Source: an uncultured Bacilli bacterium
GTDB lineage: Bacteria > Bacillota_I > Bacilli_A > RFN20 > CAG-449
Assembly: GCA_944332525.1 (NCBI GenBank)
Contig: CALVKD010000028.1
Coordinates: forward strand, 1-45,552
Direction of reading: 5' to 3'
Length of the DNA: 45,552 nt
The notes under the pieces were generated by a model. It made no database searches and was not told where the DNA came from. It saw only the letters and a program-made list of their open reading frames with translations. This document shows positions 4,667 through 27,737 of the stretch, one piece after another. How positions within the stretch are numbered: position 1 is the stretch's first letter; the number at the start of each line of letters is the position of its first letter. The translations under genes and the position numbers were made by a program.

Positions 4667-5843
4667 ACTTCTTTTCTTCAACTATCGCAGCAATCTTATC
4701 CTCTTGATCAACTTTACTCAGATCAATTTTCCTTCTAATCCGATAATGAGAAATATTTTTAAAATATATTTTGACATATGTTGCAATAATTTTAGAAAAC
4801 ATATCCCTTTTTTCTTTATTTTTTAAAATCATCGATAAGGATTTAACAGCTAAAAATAATCTCCGATCGATATTTTTTAGCATATCGTGCACTGTAACAA
4901 TTTTTGAATCATCAATCACTGAAAAAATTATATCGATAAATTCTTTTTTCTCCTCTGTGCTTAAAGCTTTTAAAAAGTCGTGCATGTTATATGATAAGAA
5001 CACTGATGAAGAAGACAAATTTTTTACTTCAATGAATTCCGAGCCATTCAAATACCAATTATATGGGGAATGCTGAAATATAGAAAAGCTTCGAGCTTTA
5101 ACAATTTTTGCTTTAACCTTACTTTCTAAAAGAATACCAATCATTGAATCAATCGGCATAATTTTTTTAATTTTCGTAGAAATAGCTTGATAAGATGGTA
5201 CTTTATCAAGAGCTTCTCTGAATCCCGGGCCATCTAAGTCATAAATATTAATAATTCTTTTTTGAATATCATATGGAGCGTAGCAAGCAGAATGCACCGC
5301 TAATGCTCCGCCTTTAGAATGTCCGATAACCATTAAAGGTGATGAAGGAAAAAGCTGTCCTATCTCTTTTAAATAACGATCAGCTTCTAAATAAGAAGGT
5401 AAATAATCATTTATCGACATCATCAAATCTTCTTTCCAGCCGACTAATGATGAATCAGTCCCGCGGAAACAAACGCAGATAAGTCCGTTATCAAGGATAA
5501 AAGTAATAGCAAAAAACTGGATAGCTAATTCTTTATCAAATTTATTTTGAACGTAATTTAACCTGATGTTGCCGAATCTTTTGCTTTTCGCACATAAGAA
5601 AAAGAACTGCCTATCCTTGTTACCAGTTACTGTACCTTCAAGAAGATAATCAATTAATTCATTATCATTAAGATGTTCTAGAGTAACATCCTTGCCGTTA
5701 CTTTCTAACGATGAAACTAAATCATTGAAATTAAGATAACTAAGCACACATAAACACGCAGCATCAACCTCTGAGAAAGGTTTTACTACAAAACTCTTCT
5801 CACCATATCGCTTTACGTAATCAAAAATCGTATACTGTTTCAT
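4650..5843 (-). CDS. Mbeg1-like / lipase class 3-type alpha/beta hydrolase
   Basis: 397 aa. The sequence has the nucleophile elbow GHSKGG (VIGHSKGGALAVHSA, about residues 172-186). A block ending CVCFRGTD (about residues 125-132) marks the oxyanion-strand region of class 3 lipases, and Asp and His candidates follow. The overall pattern matches the DUF2974 (Mbeg1-like) family common in Firmicutes. No signal peptide is visible, so it is probably cytoplasmic. Substrate is unknown. It is transcribed alone, downstream of a symmetrical hairpin at 5888-5943. Confidence 0.85.
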   Translation of the reverse strand: MKQYTIFDYVKRYGEKSFVVKPFSEVDAACLCVLSYLNFNDLVSSLESNGKDVTLEHLNDNELIDYLLEGTVTGNKDRQFFFLCAKSKRFGNIRLNYVQNKFDKELAIQFFAITFILDNGLICVCFRGTDSSLVGWKEDLMMSINDYLPSYLEADRYLKEIGQLFPSSPLMVIGHSKGGALAVHSACYAPYDIQKRIINIYDLDGPGFREALDKVPSYQAISTKIKKIMPIDSMIGILLESKVKAKIVKARSFSIFQHSPYNWYLNGSEFIEVKNLSSSSVFLSYNMHDFLKALSTEEKKEFIDIIFSVIDDSKIVTVHDMLKNIDRRLFLAVKSLSMILKNKEKRDMFSKIIATYVKIYFKNISHYRIRRKIDLSKVDQEDKIAAIVEEKKSISDR

Positions 5844-20589: not shown

Positions 20590-21432
20590 TTATTTTTCTT
20601 TTTCAATCTTTAGGAATTGTCTTAATTTCTCGCTTTGAGGATTATTAAAAATATGTTCTGGTGTTCCCTCCTCAACAACTTCTCCGTCTTCCATAAATAT
20701 GACATGATTAGAAACGTTTCTAGCAAAATCCATCTCATGGGTAACCACAATCATAGTAATACCTTCAGAAGCAAGTTTTTTCATAACATCTAAAACTTCT
20801 TTCACCATCACTGGGTCTAAAGCTGATGTTGGTTCATCAAATAAAATAATACTCGGATTCATCGCAAGAGCACGTGCAATAGCAACTCTTTGCTTTTGTC
20901 CTCCAGAAATTTGATTTATCGAAAAAGTAGCACGCTCTTCTAGTCCAACTTCTTTAAGACATTTCATAGCGATTTCTTCTGCCTCTTTCTTGCTTCTTTT
21001 TAAAATTTTTCTTTGAGCAAAAACAACATTTTGTAAAACGTTCATATTATTAAACAGATTAAATGATTGAAACACCATAATCATATCTCTGCGAATTTGA
21101 TTAATATTTCGCGTTTTAATTTCTTTAAGTTTTTGTTTAGCCTTTTTAACATTTTCCGCATCTTTAGATGTTTTTATTAATTCTTTTAACTCTTTTATTT
21201 GTTGATCTCTAGTTTCTTTATTAACTCCGATACCTTGAAAATAAATATTTCCTCCAGATGGGATTTCTAATAAATTAAGGCACCTAAGAAATGTCGATTT
21301 TCCAGACCCAGAAGGACCAATAATTGAAACAATATCACCTTTATAAACATCTAAAGAAATATCTTTTAAAACAGAAGTAGTATCAAAGTCTTTTTTCAAA
21401 TGTTCAACATGCAACAATAACTCTTTATTCAT
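20590..21432 (-). CDS. Lysine (amino acid) ABC transporter, ATP-binding protein
   Basis: 280 aa. Walker [10 protein letters not shown] (about 37-45), Q-loop MVFQSFN (about 119), signature ISGGQKQR (about 164), Walker [13 protein letters not shown] (about 185-196) and the H-loop [11 protein letters not shown] are all present, placing it with GlnQ/HisP-type polar amino acid ATPases. A lysine-rich insertion of about 35 residues between Walker A and the Q-loop makes it longer than the usual ~245 aa. It begins 3 nt after the permease stop. The lysine riboswitch upstream assigns the substrate. Confidence 0.93.
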
Positions 21433-21435
21433 GCT

Positions 21436-23124
21436 CTATACCCTTCCTTTCTGAAAATGTCTACTTAGAAAAAATGGTCTTTTAATAATTTTTTCTTTAT
21501 TCATTTTCATTTCAATCAACTTAAATATCAACGAGAAGATAAATGTTAAAAGTAAATATATAACCGCGGTGATAATATAAACGCCAATAGCGTTATATGT
21601 ATTATTAATAATAATTCTTGACCATCCATATAACTCTGTTAAACCAATAACATTTAAAACCGAACTATCTTTAATATTGACAATAAATTCATTTCCAATC
21701 GACAGCAAAGAATTTTTCAGCGCTTGAGGTAAAATAATGGATTTCATAGTTTGAAAATGGGTTAATCCAAGGCTTCTACCACCTTCGAGCTGACCTTTAT
21801 CAACTGAAGATATTCCTCCGCGAATAATCTCTCCAATATAAGCTCCAGTATTTAAAATAATAACAATACATCCGCAATAGAAATATCCGTTAAAAATAAC
21901 ATTATTACCCATATTCACCCAATCAACAGGTATTATTAATGGTATGGCTAAAAAGAAGATCATGCCCTGAATCATCATTGGAGTCCCGCGGAAAATCAAA
22001 ATATAAATATAGGCAATTGCATTAGCTATTTTCTTACAAATTTTAATAAAAATATTATCATTTTGTGAAATAGTTAAGGTTCGACAAACACCTAAAAGTA
22101 AACCGATAATTACCCCTCCAATAGTGCCAGCGATAGCTAAAAATAACGTCGTCGCTATCCCATACCCAAACTGAAGAGAATACTCATTAATAATGTCAAA
22201 AACACTATTTGAAGAAGCTTCACCTTCAATTGCCGCCCACGGCAAAAGAGCATCCCATTCCATTTTTTGAACAAGCAATGTCATGTTTAATTCTTCAGCG
22301 ATTATTTTAGCTATTTCAATATCATAGCCTTCAACATATTGATTAGATAATCCTGAAATTGGATAAGTATAATTATTAGGAGAAGTCTCTGTCCAATTAA
22401 AAGAAGGATAATTGCATTCTAACCCGACAATAATAGTTCCATTACTTCCAACAATTTCACTTTGAATATTATCGATTGGCTCATTATTGTTTGAATTAAA
22501 TGCAACCATTTCCGTCATGATTTCATTTCGCTTTTCTGCAGATATATTAGCTAAAACAGAATTAACAGATTCTTTGAACTCATCGTTTCCTTTTCCAATA
22601 CCAATAGATACTTTTAATTCGTTAAGCAAATCGCCAAGAATATTTTTATCAATGTGGATTAACATTAAATCAGCATTTCCACCGACATAAGATTGAGCAA
22701 CAGGTAATTCAGCAGTAAAGCCAAATGCTGCGCCATTAGTAACATTAAGCGCTGCCGTAGTAAACGAATCAACAGCATTCATTTTCTTAGCATTGAACTT
22801 TTCTACAAAGACATCAATCATGTCATAAGTTATAGTACCTGTTTGCGAAATTAGATTTTGACCATTTAAAATACTTGTTAGTTCTTCTTCGCTATAGATA
22901 TGCTCATCGCTTAAAGAACTATCTTTTCTTACTACTAATACTAATTCGCTTTCATAATAATAATCAGTAAAATCAATTGATTCTCTTCTTTCCTCTGTAT
23001 CCGTCATACCGGCGATAATTAAGCGATAGGTTTGATCACTTGAATCACCGCATGAAGCAAGAAACAAACAAGAAGTGAACATCATAAAGAAACAAATAAA
23101 AAATTTAATTGCTCTGCTTTTCAT
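21436..23124 (-). CDS. Fused lysine-binding protein/permease; binding domain apparently circularly permuted
   Basis: 562 aa. It has a lipoprotein signal (LASC, Cys25), then about residues 33-225, which begin with IIAGMTDTEERR. That motif normally sits in the middle of a type II amino acid-binding protein, and this segment runs on to the domain's usual end. Residues ~228-305 (IVGLECNYPSFNW to WDALLPW) match the usual beginning of the same domain and stop where the first segment would continue. A permease domain (about 310-562) with the conserved EIIRGGISSVDKGQLEG loop follows. The ATG at 23124 has the site GGGAGG; an upstream ATG (23187) lies within the riboswitch leader. Substrate assignment rests on the lysine riboswitch. 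Confidence 0.88.
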   Translation of the reverse strand: MKSRAIKFFICFFMMFTSCLFLASCGDSSDQTYRLIIAGMTDTEERRESIDFTDYYYESELVLVVRKDSSLSDEHIYSEEELTSILNGQNLISQTGTITYDMIDVFVEKFNAKKMNAVDSFTTAALNVTNGAAFGFTAELPVAQSYVGGNADLMLIHIDKNILGDLLNELKVSIGIGKGNDEFKESVNSVLANISAEKRNEIMTEMVAFNSNNNEPIDNIQSEIVGSNGTIIVGLECNYPSFNWTETSPNNYTYPISGLSNQYVEGYDIEIAKIIAEELNMTLLVQKMEWDALLPWAAIEGEASSNSVFDIINEYSLQFGYGIATTLFLAIAGTIGGVIIGLLLGVCRTLTISQNDNIFIKICKKIANAIAYIYILIFRGTPMMIQGMIFFLAIPLIIPVDWVNMGNNVIFNGYFYCGCIVIILNTGAYIGEIIRGGISSVDKGQLEGGRSLGLTHFQTMKSIILPQALKNSLLSIGNEFIVNIKDSSVLNVIGLTELYGWSRIIINNTYNAIGVYIITAVIYLLLTFIFSLIFKLIEMKMNKEKIIKRPFFLSRHFQKGRV

Positions 23125-23167: not shown

Positions 23168-23190
23168 CCCTGAAAAAGTAAGCTCACACC

Positions 23191-23346
23191 GATAGCGCCT
23201 CTAGAAGAATTTCTAGGAGTCTATAGGGATATTGTCCCATAGCCCAATCAATGCTTATGCCTAAACATTGTTTCGGCAGCCTTGCCTTTCACTTGTTTCA
23301 TTAGATGCCTCTTCCGCAAGTTACTCTTATAGGCTGCGCCTCTATC
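23191..23346 (-). ncRNA. Lysine riboswitch (L-box)
   Basis: Read on the minus strand, GATAGAGGCGC pairs with GCGCTATC to close P1. Conserved L-box core segments lie between them: AAGAGTAACTTGCGGAAG, GTGAAAGGCAAGGCTGCCGAA and GGGCTATGGGA. Lysine binding should stabilise the aptamer and favour the terminator at 23137-23167, shutting off the importer when lysine is plentiful. It defines the substrate of the downstream ABC system. Confidence 0.93.
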
Positions 23347-23359
23347 AATCTTTGTAAAT

Positions 23360-24587: not shown

Positions 24588-27500
24588 TTATTTTTCATTA
24601 CTTTTTTTTATTCTATTTTCCAATGAAGCAATTATTTTATTTTTTTCTTCCAATTGATTTTGCAAAGATTTTATTTCTTCTTCAAGTTGTTTTTTGTTCT
24701 TTTGCTTAGGTTTTACTATTACTGGTTTATCATCAACTACAATTCCATTATCTGTTACCTTTTTTCTCTTAGGAATGTAGGTCCAAACAAATAGAAATAC
24801 TGGCAATCCGAAGAAAATAATATTTAATAAGACAACTAAGATAACCCACCAGTTAAATCCTTTGGTAATTGCTTTTGGATCAGAAATTTCAACACTATAT
24901 TCATTATCAACTTCTTCAGTCTTTGCGCGGTAATAGGTATTGCACATTGTATAAACCATAGACTTAGCAGATGAACGTGCAAGATTCATATCTACTGTAT
25001 CAGAAGTTGAAATTGTACCATATTTTCCCGCTTGACCATAGTTTGGATTTAATTGCAAATTCAATCCAGCTCTAATACCATTTCTTAATACCATGTTAGA
25101 ATCATCACCGCTATCATAATCAGTAACAACGACACCCTTAAATCCGAATTCTGTGCGTAAGATACCATCTATCATTGCTTGATTAGATCCTGACCAAGTA
25201 GCACCAATTTTATTAAATGATACCATGACAGCATTAGCACCGCCTTTTTTAATGGCAATTTCAAATGGTTTAAGATAATTTTCTCTAAGATTTTGCTCTG
25301 TGCACCAAACTCTTTGATTTGTCCAAGGTGAGGAATCATATAAAGCTAAGTGTTTAATATAAGAATAAACTCCATTAGAAGCTGCTCCTTTAATGAAACT
25401 AGCAGCTAAATAGCCACTTAAAACGCCATCTTCACTATAGTATTCGTAATTTCTTCCATTTAATGCTTCTCTATGGAGATTTACACCTGGAGCATAAATG
25501 CCACTAATACCAAAGTTTTGACCATCCATACCGATAATTTGACCAGCTTGTGAGAGCAATTCTTTATTCCAAGTTTGACCAGTAAGATTTTCGCATGGCA
25601 AAGCAGTCATATTTGAACCAGGAGTATTTGGAGAAAGATTTGTCCTATTAAAACCTGAAGGACCATCGTATTCAAGATTCACTGGTTTCCCAATACTTTC
25701 AGCAGCACGAGAACCATAACCACCATCTTCAACTAATCTCTTAAGTTCTGTAGGTGTTAGTTGATTTAAAAAGTCATCCCAAATCGAATCATTATAATTG
25801 GCTGGGTTGCCTAATTGCATCATTAATTCATCATTATATTTTAATTTTGCACCTTCTTTTTCACCAGTAAATTCTTCATAACTAGCAAAGCTTCCATCAT
25901 CTTTTGTTACTAAACGTAAATTGCTTTCAACACCAGTAACTGGCATATTCTCAAAAACGTAATCATCATAATAATAAATTGAATATGCCGACATAACAGC
26001 TGATGATGGTGCTTCTTCTCTCTCACGCGGCATCGTAGCTTCAAAATTACTTCTTGATAAATATGTCCAATCAACATCTAATGATGAACCATCTAATGGA
26101 CATTCACCATAAGCTGTATAGCCGGTAAATCTATTTTTAATTCTGCCACCAGATACTGGATCTTTACGATAACGGAAAGCAACATCATCGACAGTATATG
26201 TTAACGTATTATTTTCCATTTCTTTCAAATGATGAGAATCAGTCATTAACTTCAATTGATATTCACCAATATCGACTTCCCAACCTGTCATACCATTATC
26301 ATTTTTATCATAACAATCGTAAGAAGCTAAATCATATGGTTTCACTGTGAATGAAATAACAGAAGATTGTCCTGGTTCTAGTAAAGGAGTTTTACCAAAA
26401 TCAAGTAAATTGACTTCAGCTTTTTCAATTTGTCCATCATAATACGGAGCAGTATAATAGAGTTCTACAACATCTTTACCAGCTACTGCACCGGTATTAG
26501 TAACACGAACATCAAATTTTATTTCAGAAGTACTAGTTAGTGCACTATTTTCTGGTAAGCTAAGATTTTCAACTTCCCAAGAGAAAGAAGTATAACTTAA
26601 TCCATGACCGAAAGGATATTGAACAACAGCATCATATCCATTTTTTTCATATGGAGTACCACCAAATTTGACTTTATTATCAAAATAACCCTCTGCATCA
26701 GCAGTTTCATAAAATTTATATCCTAAATAAATATCTTCAGCATACACAATATCATTTGATAATGGATTTACACGGCTTATTTCGTTTTCCTTAGGATCAT
26801 ACAAAACTGTATCAGCTAATTTTCCGCTAGGATTGACCTCGCCTGTTAAAATTTTACCAATAGCAGTCGCACCAGATTGTCCCATATATCCAACGTTCAT
26901 TGCAGCTCCAATTTTACCATATGTTGCTTCGTCATCGATGAAGCTCATATCCATAATTGAACCGGTATTAAAGACAACGATAACATTATCGAAATTACTT
27001 GTAACCATTTTAATCAATGATATTTCTTCAGTTGAAATTTCATTGAATGATCGTGTTTCATCTGTAGGTAAATCATGTTTATATTGAACATCATATAATC
27101 TTCCAATATATTCACCGCTGTAACGCGATAATACTATTACTGCAGTATCTGAGAATGTACGAGCCCGGCCAACAACATCATCTGGAAATGCTGTTGCAGT
27201 AACAGGCTCCTTTAATTTTGTGCTGTAACGATTATTCCAATTGCTTGTTTCACCCCAGTCAGCATCTTCATCAGTACACCAGTCTTCATAGATTTTTATT
27301 ATTTCTTCGTTGTATTCAAATCCTGCTTCTTTTAACCCTTCCAAAAATGTAACTTTATTATCTGGGTAAATATATGATCTGCCTGAACCATTACCAGTAT
27401 AAAGGAACCCGGAATCAGTAGCACCCCAACCAAAGACATTTATCTTTCTTTTATCATTGGCTAAAGGAAGCGTTGGTTTACCTTCCTTATTTAAGTCGTT

Positions 27501-27737
27501 TTTTAATAAAACAACACCTTCATTTGCTAATTTTCTGACAACTTCATCACCATTTTTTGCTGCTTCCTCAACATTATTACTTCCAGAAGAAATTTGTTCA
27601 GCTGTGTTAAAAAAGTTTGAAATTGGTCCAGCATATTTAACAGCGAAATAGTCACCTACAATTATTGAAGGAAATAAAACTGCTGCCAAAGCAATTCCCG
27701 TTATTTGAATCGGTTTTAATTTAAATTTCTTTTTCAT
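24588..27737 (-). CDS. Second membrane-anchored GH3 beta-glycosidase with inverted domains
   Basis: 1049 aa. Same plan as the first GH3: an N-terminal membrane helix (about 10-30), the usual C-terminal domain first (LANEGVVLLKN near 70), a fibronectin III-like domain (NTGAVAGKDVVELYY near 415) and the TIM barrel last (VNLHREALNGRNYEYYSED near 755, IKHLALYD near 795, VVVTDYDSG with the nucleophile Asp near 870). A second membrane helix lies near 970-995. The C-terminus is a Lys/Glu coiled coil of ~45 residues. Catalytic motifs are better preserved than in the first copy. The gene starts 15 nt after the Ig/CBM-like lipoprotein, its likely partner. Confidence 0.92.
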   Translation of the reverse strand: MKKKFKLKPIQITGIALAAVLFPSIIVGDYFAVKYAGPISNFFNTAEQISSGSNNVEEAAKNGDEVVRKLANEGVVLLKNDLNKEGKPTLPLANDKRKINVFGWGATDSGFLYTGNGSGRSYIYPDNKVTFLEGLKEAGFEYNEEIIKIYEDWCTDEDADWGETSNWNNRYSTKLKEPVTATAFPDDVVGRARTFSDTAVIVLSRYSGEYIGRLYDVQYKHDLPTDETRSFNEISTEEISLIKMVTSNFDNVIVVFNTGSIMDMSFIDDEATYGKIGAAMNVGYMGQSGATAIGKILTGEVNPSGKLADTVLYDPKENEISRVNPLSNDIVYAEDIYLGYKFYETADAEGYFDNKVKFGGTPYEKNGYDAVVQYPFGHGLSYTSFSWEVENLSLPENSALTSTSEIKFDVRVTNTGAVAGKDVVELYYTAPYYDGQIEKAEVNLLDFGKTPLLEPGQSSVISFTVKPYDLASYDCYDKNDNGMTGWEVDIGEYQLKLMTDSHHLKEMENNTLTYTVDDVAFRYRKDPVSGGRIKNRFTGYTAYGECPLDGSSLDVDWTYLSRSNFEATMPREREEAPSSAVMSAYSIYYYDDYVFENMPVTGVESNLRLVTKDDGSFASYEEFTGEKEGAKLKYNDELMMQLGNPANYNDSIWDDFLNQLTPTELKRLVEDGGYGSRAAESIGKPVNLEYDGPSGFNRTNLSPNTPGSNMTALPCENLTGQTWNKELLSQAGQIIGMDGQNFGISGIYAPGVNLHREALNGRNYEYYSEDGVLSGYLAASFIKGAASNGVYSYIKHLALYDSSPWTNQRVWCTEQNLRENYLKPFEIAIKKGGANAVMVSFNKIGATWSGSNQAMIDGILRTEFGFKGVVVTDYDSGDDSNMVLRNGIRAGLNLQLNPNYGQAGKYGTISTSDTVDMNLARSSAKSMVYTMCNTYYRAKTEEVDNEYSVEISDPKAITKGFNWWVILVVLLNIIFFGLPVFLFVWTYIPKRKKVTDNGIVVDDKPVIVKPKQKNKKQLEEEIKSLQNQLEEKNKIIASLENRIKKSNEK

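Follow-up and report, generated by a model that had tools for sequence, protein, structure and literature searches.

A circularly permuted family-3 binding domain fused to an ABC permease under a lysine riboswitch in an uncultured Bacilli bacterium, and its relatives with other cut points

Natural circular permutation has been described before among binding proteins. The permutant described in depth is TpMglB-2 (Tp0684), a glucose-binding lipoprotein for which a type Ic/cluster Bc has been proposed; it shares with the protein described here a natural circular permutation and a lipid anchor, and it keeps binding and conformational change (PMC4990184). A structure-based permutation family, obtained with CPSARST, comprises glycine-betaine-binding proteins (2B4L versus 1R9L/1SW1), molybdate-binding proteins and CysB, which, like the present case, show circular permutation among periplasmic-binding-like folds (PMC2395249). 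As regards domain fusion, importers of the GlnPQ type (6h30) have one chain in which the family-3 domain or domains precede the permease, the ATPase being separate, and this is also the layout of the locus analysed here.

This locus lies in a stretch of 45,552 nucleotides (the window; contig CALVKD010000028.1, GCA_944332525.1). It is very probable that the product of its gene at 21436-23124 contains a naturally occurring, circularly permuted family-3 (PF00497) amino-acid-binding domain whose new C-terminus continues into an ABC permease, and that this protein and the adjacent ATPase constitute a lysine importer under the control of a lysine riboswitch.

Domain order and predicted fold of the fusion protein

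The open reading frame, on the minus strand, encodes a lipoprotein of 562 amino acids, starting at an ATG at 23124 that is preceded by a GGGAGG-type ribosome-binding site; a longer version with a GTG start would overlap the end of the riboswitch. Pfam finds SBP_bac_3 (PF00497) in two stretches (E 1.8e-17), which places the permuted domain in family 3 on profile, and BPD_transp_1 (PF00528) in the same frame, bearing out an earlier sequence-only reading in which a binding domain was fused to its own permease. The protein was divided into segments C1, C2, N and permease (Table 1).

Table 1. Features of the permuted importer locus (coordinates of the window)
Feature	Coordinates	Strand	Basis
Lysine riboswitch aptamer, immediately 5' of the permuted gene	23185..23352	-	Rfam RF00168, 82.7 bits, E 3e-20
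Lipoprotein signal peptide and lipid-attachment Cys (residues 1-25, ...LFLASC)	23050..23124	-	Read from sequence; Cys shared by all three CP-A copies
Segment C1 (residues 33-149): strand after alpha-2, hinge strand, most of lobe 2	22678..23028	-	6svf from residue 72 on; piece HMM
Segment C2 (residues 150-212): back into lobe 1, normal C-terminal helices	22489..22677	-	6svf up to residue 224; piece HMM; model helices
New linker (residues 213-229), old C-terminus to old N-terminus	22438..22488	-	Low-confidence loop between last C2 helix and first N strand in the model
Segment N (residues 230-296): normal domain start (TIIVGLECNYPSFNW ... EWDALLPW), last here	22237..22437	-	6svf 7-64; piece HMM
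Junction of permuted domain and permease (residues 297-315)	22180..22236	-	Sequence; varies among CP-A copies
Permease domain (residues 316-562), polar amino acid ABC importer type	21439..22179	-	PF00528 E 1.1e-22; NCBIfam amino-acid permease models
ABC ATPase gene, last importer part	20590..21432	-	ORF bearing two motifs

Alignment with the solved arginine-binding protein of Thermotoga (6svf) places residues 35-205 on chain positions 72-224 and residues 226-296 on positions 7-64, giving the order C1-C2-N instead of the canonical N-C1-C2. Since the match is in swapped order, the cut can be placed in the turn between helix alpha-2 (EWDALLPW, ending at residue 296) and the strand YRLIIAGMT (starting at residue 33). 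The parts are thus swapped and the old termini joined, as in a circular permutation, and piece HMMs indicate that C1, C2 and N add up to one complete domain in which none is duplicated or missing. This agrees with the earlier proposal that the two halves, joined end to start, make exactly one domain.

C1, a mid-domain piece in the normal order, bears GMTDTEERR (Thr41, Thr43, Arg46) and Glu139, residues that are invariant among the three copies of this type. The amino-acid-binding residues of family 3, namely those of the TxxR motif and the acidic one of lobe 2, are kept, as is the cysteine for lipid attachment. Conservation is weaker in the linker than in the domain (dN/dS 0.25 for residues 209-228).

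Structure prediction had been suggested as a check of the permutation, and the AlphaFold2 model, built on an alignment with three full-length rows of this type and otherwise fragments of relatives, closes into one domain (pLDDT 86.3, pTM 0.81). A free-standing relative with the order C2-N-C1, described below, gave pLDDT 85.1 and pTM 0.80. The top Foldseek match of the fusion model is the tandem SBD1-SBD2 of GlnPQ (6h30), over 269 columns at an rmsd of 19.9 A, and single family-3 binding proteins match over only about 180 columns; this is the pattern expected if one closed query domain overlies halves of two target domains. The model and, indirectly, the Foldseek matches thus suggest that the two permuted parts pack as a single closed domain.

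According to this model, the chain would run from the lipid anchor into lobe 1 at the strand after alpha-2, proceed to lobe 2 and come back to lobe 1 by way of the usual C-terminal helices. A new linker, about 17 residues long, would then connect the former termini, and the strands and helices that normally open lobe 1 at the N-terminus would be built last, leading into the permease. The two lobes would close on lysine in the usual way, so that transport by the standard binding-protein-dependent importer cycle would be expected, with the permuted domain tethered at both ends during the cycle.

Importers of this type carry two permease copies, which would bring two permuted domains close together. 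Taking into account that the linker is also short, C1-C2 of one protomer could instead complete its domain with N of the other by a domain swap. This pairing in trans is unlikely, given that the single chain is predicted to close by itself and that the free-standing C2-N-C1 permutant, which has no permease fusion, is predicted to close as well.

Lysine link, conservation and origin of the permuted order

The aptamer upstream of the permuted gene is the sole RF00168 match in the genome. The dapA and lysA models had no hits in this genome, which is 98.95% complete, and in control genomes the same models found dapA in 14 of 14 and lysA in 13 of 14; the host is therefore probably a lysine auxotroph. 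The binding domain and permease form one chain, and the ATPase frame follows 3 bases downstream. In the copy of the fusion carried by G161 (CALVXI010000005.1), an open reading frame at 4685-5533 occupies the same place after the fusion gene. The best reading is that the permuted fusion and the ATPase constitute a lysine importer, the riboswitch and the missing lysine genes pointing to lysine binding and transport. Lysine had already been put forward as the likely substrate, and that assignment fits a genome which lacks dapA and lysA and has its single lysine riboswitch directly before this gene. Near the importer, the window also encodes a large secreted protein (24588-27737) with a C-terminal membrane helix, which by eye looks glycoside hydrolase-like.

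The same C1-C2-N order fused to a permease (type CP-A: the window's genome, G001 and G161) was found in relatives, where the sequence-only reading had advised looking for it, at 98% identity in G001 and at 72-73% in G161, a member of another family of the window's taxonomic order. For the whole gene, dN/dS is 0.05 against G001 and 0.19 against G161, and C1, C2, N and the permease each show about 0.16 against G161.

A GlnP-like tandem protein reduced to two truncated, non-functional domains in the course of being lost would give the same piece order where the two domains abut, and tandem binding domains fused to permeases do exist (6h30). It is nevertheless very unlikely that the gene is such a remnant: purifying selection acts on both parts as strongly as on the permease, the pieces are complementary and a second copy of any of them is absent, the gene is the sole one with a lysine riboswitch in a genome lacking dapA and lysA, and the predicted model folds with confidence.

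That a short-read assembler wrongly collapsed tandem or duplicated domains is barely conceivable, even though the window's genome is a 98-contig draft and its named relatives were assembled from metagenomes, since three genomes share the same in-frame order (98% and 72-73% identity) under purifying selection and other cut points recur across many genomes. The conserved order and the dN/dS values of 0.05 and 0.19 rule out chance and artefact, an assembly artefact being ruled out in particular by the order held at 72-73% identity. The permuted order is natural and recurrent, neither a one-off nor an assembly error, and the earlier reading of the domain as circularly permuted is upheld by the swapped 6svf match, the order kept in three genomes and the closed model.

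Circular permutation is usually explained by duplication or tandem fusion followed by trimming. It had been proposed that the permutation arose when a GlnP-like pair of tandem domains was stripped of its two outer halves. This origin, through a duplicated or tandem intermediate that was later trimmed, is plausible, tandem GlnP being known (6h30). All 76 related binding proteins examined contain each piece exactly once, the CP-A locus has no duplication remnant beyond A+T-rich chance repeats, and no tandem intermediate was seen among the relatives examined. In a plasmid search, every match had the coverage expected of an unpermuted or tandem relative. The pieces of CP-A conflict in their affinities, N and the permease being nearer the C2-N-C1 group and C1-C2 nearer others; piece-wise AU tests of a mixed origin were undecided, the quick tree search having missed better trees.

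Other cut points and the number of permutation events

In nine genomes of the window's taxonomic order, the binding protein is a separate gene with the order C2-N-C1, followed by a permease gene; a tenth (G017) is cut off by a contig end. The cut lies here between helix ELPVAxSIV and strand LxIVHxD. A lysine riboswitch is found upstream of all nine loci and of 10 of the 12 unpermuted relatives scanned.

Among 279 genomes of the order, a C2-N profile found 14 continuous matches, namely the three CP-A copies, the nine C2-N-C1 copies and two more (G244, G246) from a different subfamily that likewise has the order C2-N-C1. In the latter, T-box leaders (L146:1312-1550 in G244, L147:2584-2822 in G246) lie directly upstream of the binding protein genes, and their specifier, which by eye reads CGC (arginine), tentatively suggests an arginine importer. 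The gene L147:1554-2573 of G246 begins with about 50 residues unlike its relatives, apparently through a frameshift or an error in sequencing. G357 and G282, outside the window's order, contain further members of this subfamily. In it, the unpermuted L148 matches the permuted L188 with swapped parts at 36% and 59% identity, and L188 aligns with AncQR (4zv1) as 82-259 to 14-176 and 9-57 to 183-231.

In a third order, seen in G466 and G389 from another family, the cut separates the hinge strand from lobe 2; against 4zv1, query residues 143-239 match 6-103 and residues 10-129 match 109-232. These hinge-cut genes (L190:1117-1896, L191:1115-1906) adjoin a gene for a conserved protein of 330 residues and importer permease and ATPase genes.

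With full-length queries and strict cut-offs, the class and phylum samples gave only unpermuted copies outside the window's order. The more sensitive C2-N profile, applied to 272 genomes of the class, found four permuted copies outside it, which overturns a restriction of the permutation to this order and makes the earlier negative a matter of sensitivity.

Trees were built on concatenated pieces restored to canonical order. The G206 and G207 copies split from the other seven C2-N-C1 copies with branch support of 100/100. A single clade of all nine was rejected on binding domain plus permease (AU p 0.0047 with the quick tree, 0.01 with the careful tree) and appeared in 0% of 200 bootstrap trees in the careful analysis, and it was not rejected on the binding domain alone (AU p 0.096). 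The rejection is good but not final, because the clade was chosen for testing after the tree had been seen and the G206/G207 pair sits on a long branch. A single origin of all lysine-type C2-N-C1 copies is disfavoured by the tests on domain plus permease. On the permease tree, the T-box-type subfamily stays apart from the main C2-N-C1 group (AU p 1e-4). A clade of CP-A with the main C2-N-C1 group was not rejected (AU p 0.23), and thus one could derive from the other.

There are, then, five permuted groups (CP-A, main C2-N-C1, the G206/G207 pair, the T-box-type subfamily and the hinge-cut type) with three cut points. We consider it rather probable that the family-3 domains of this bacterial class form a permutation hotspot, with about five independent re-cuts at at least three surface turns in riboswitch- or T-box-controlled importers, one site having been reached more than once. 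If this is true, working permutants of the family-3 fold arise easily and are kept.

In two genomes, an unpermuted domain fused to a permease (L005 in G041, L091 in G066) groups with the main C2-N-C1 clade, which could reflect a separate fusion or a reversion. Their position beside that group would fit a permuted ancestor from which some unpermuted relatives descended, an idea that is scarcely credible considering that the solved relatives are unpermuted and that this order predominates in the class and phylum samples.

Comparison with known systems

Natural permuted binding proteins such as TpMglB-2 and the betaine-binding proteins were known earlier; what appears to be new here is permutation in amino-acid family 3 and in fusion with a permease, since no natural permutant of either kind was found in the open-access literature, outside which most subscription papers lie. 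Earlier natural permutants of binding proteins were recognised between distant proteins. In the present case, permuted and unpermuted versions of one domain are found in operons of one kind that the same riboswitch controls, with about 45-60% identity per piece and three cut points; with such close pairs, the route, constraints and cost of permutation become directly testable. Moreover, family profiles written for one order conceal real members, and the cut points offer naturally tested permutation sites for a fold in wide biosensor use.

TpMglB-2 has a cluster B sugar-binding fold, is a separate protein and has a moved part of weak similarity, whereas the window's protein belongs to family 3, is fused to its permease and has a moved N part that is about 45-59% identical to unpermuted relatives; its matches are family-3 amino-acid-binding proteins, outside the type Ic cluster B fold. 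The permutation among betaine-binding proteins, molybdate-binding proteins and CysB was seen by structure at less than 24% identity, while the permutants described here are found between close relatives, and order, operon and regulation can therefore be compared directly. GlnP contains two complete domains in normal order, in contrast with the single permuted domain of the window's fusion, in which each piece is present once. The Thermotoga arginine-binding protein and AncQR correspond to this same domain piece by piece, both in the normal order.
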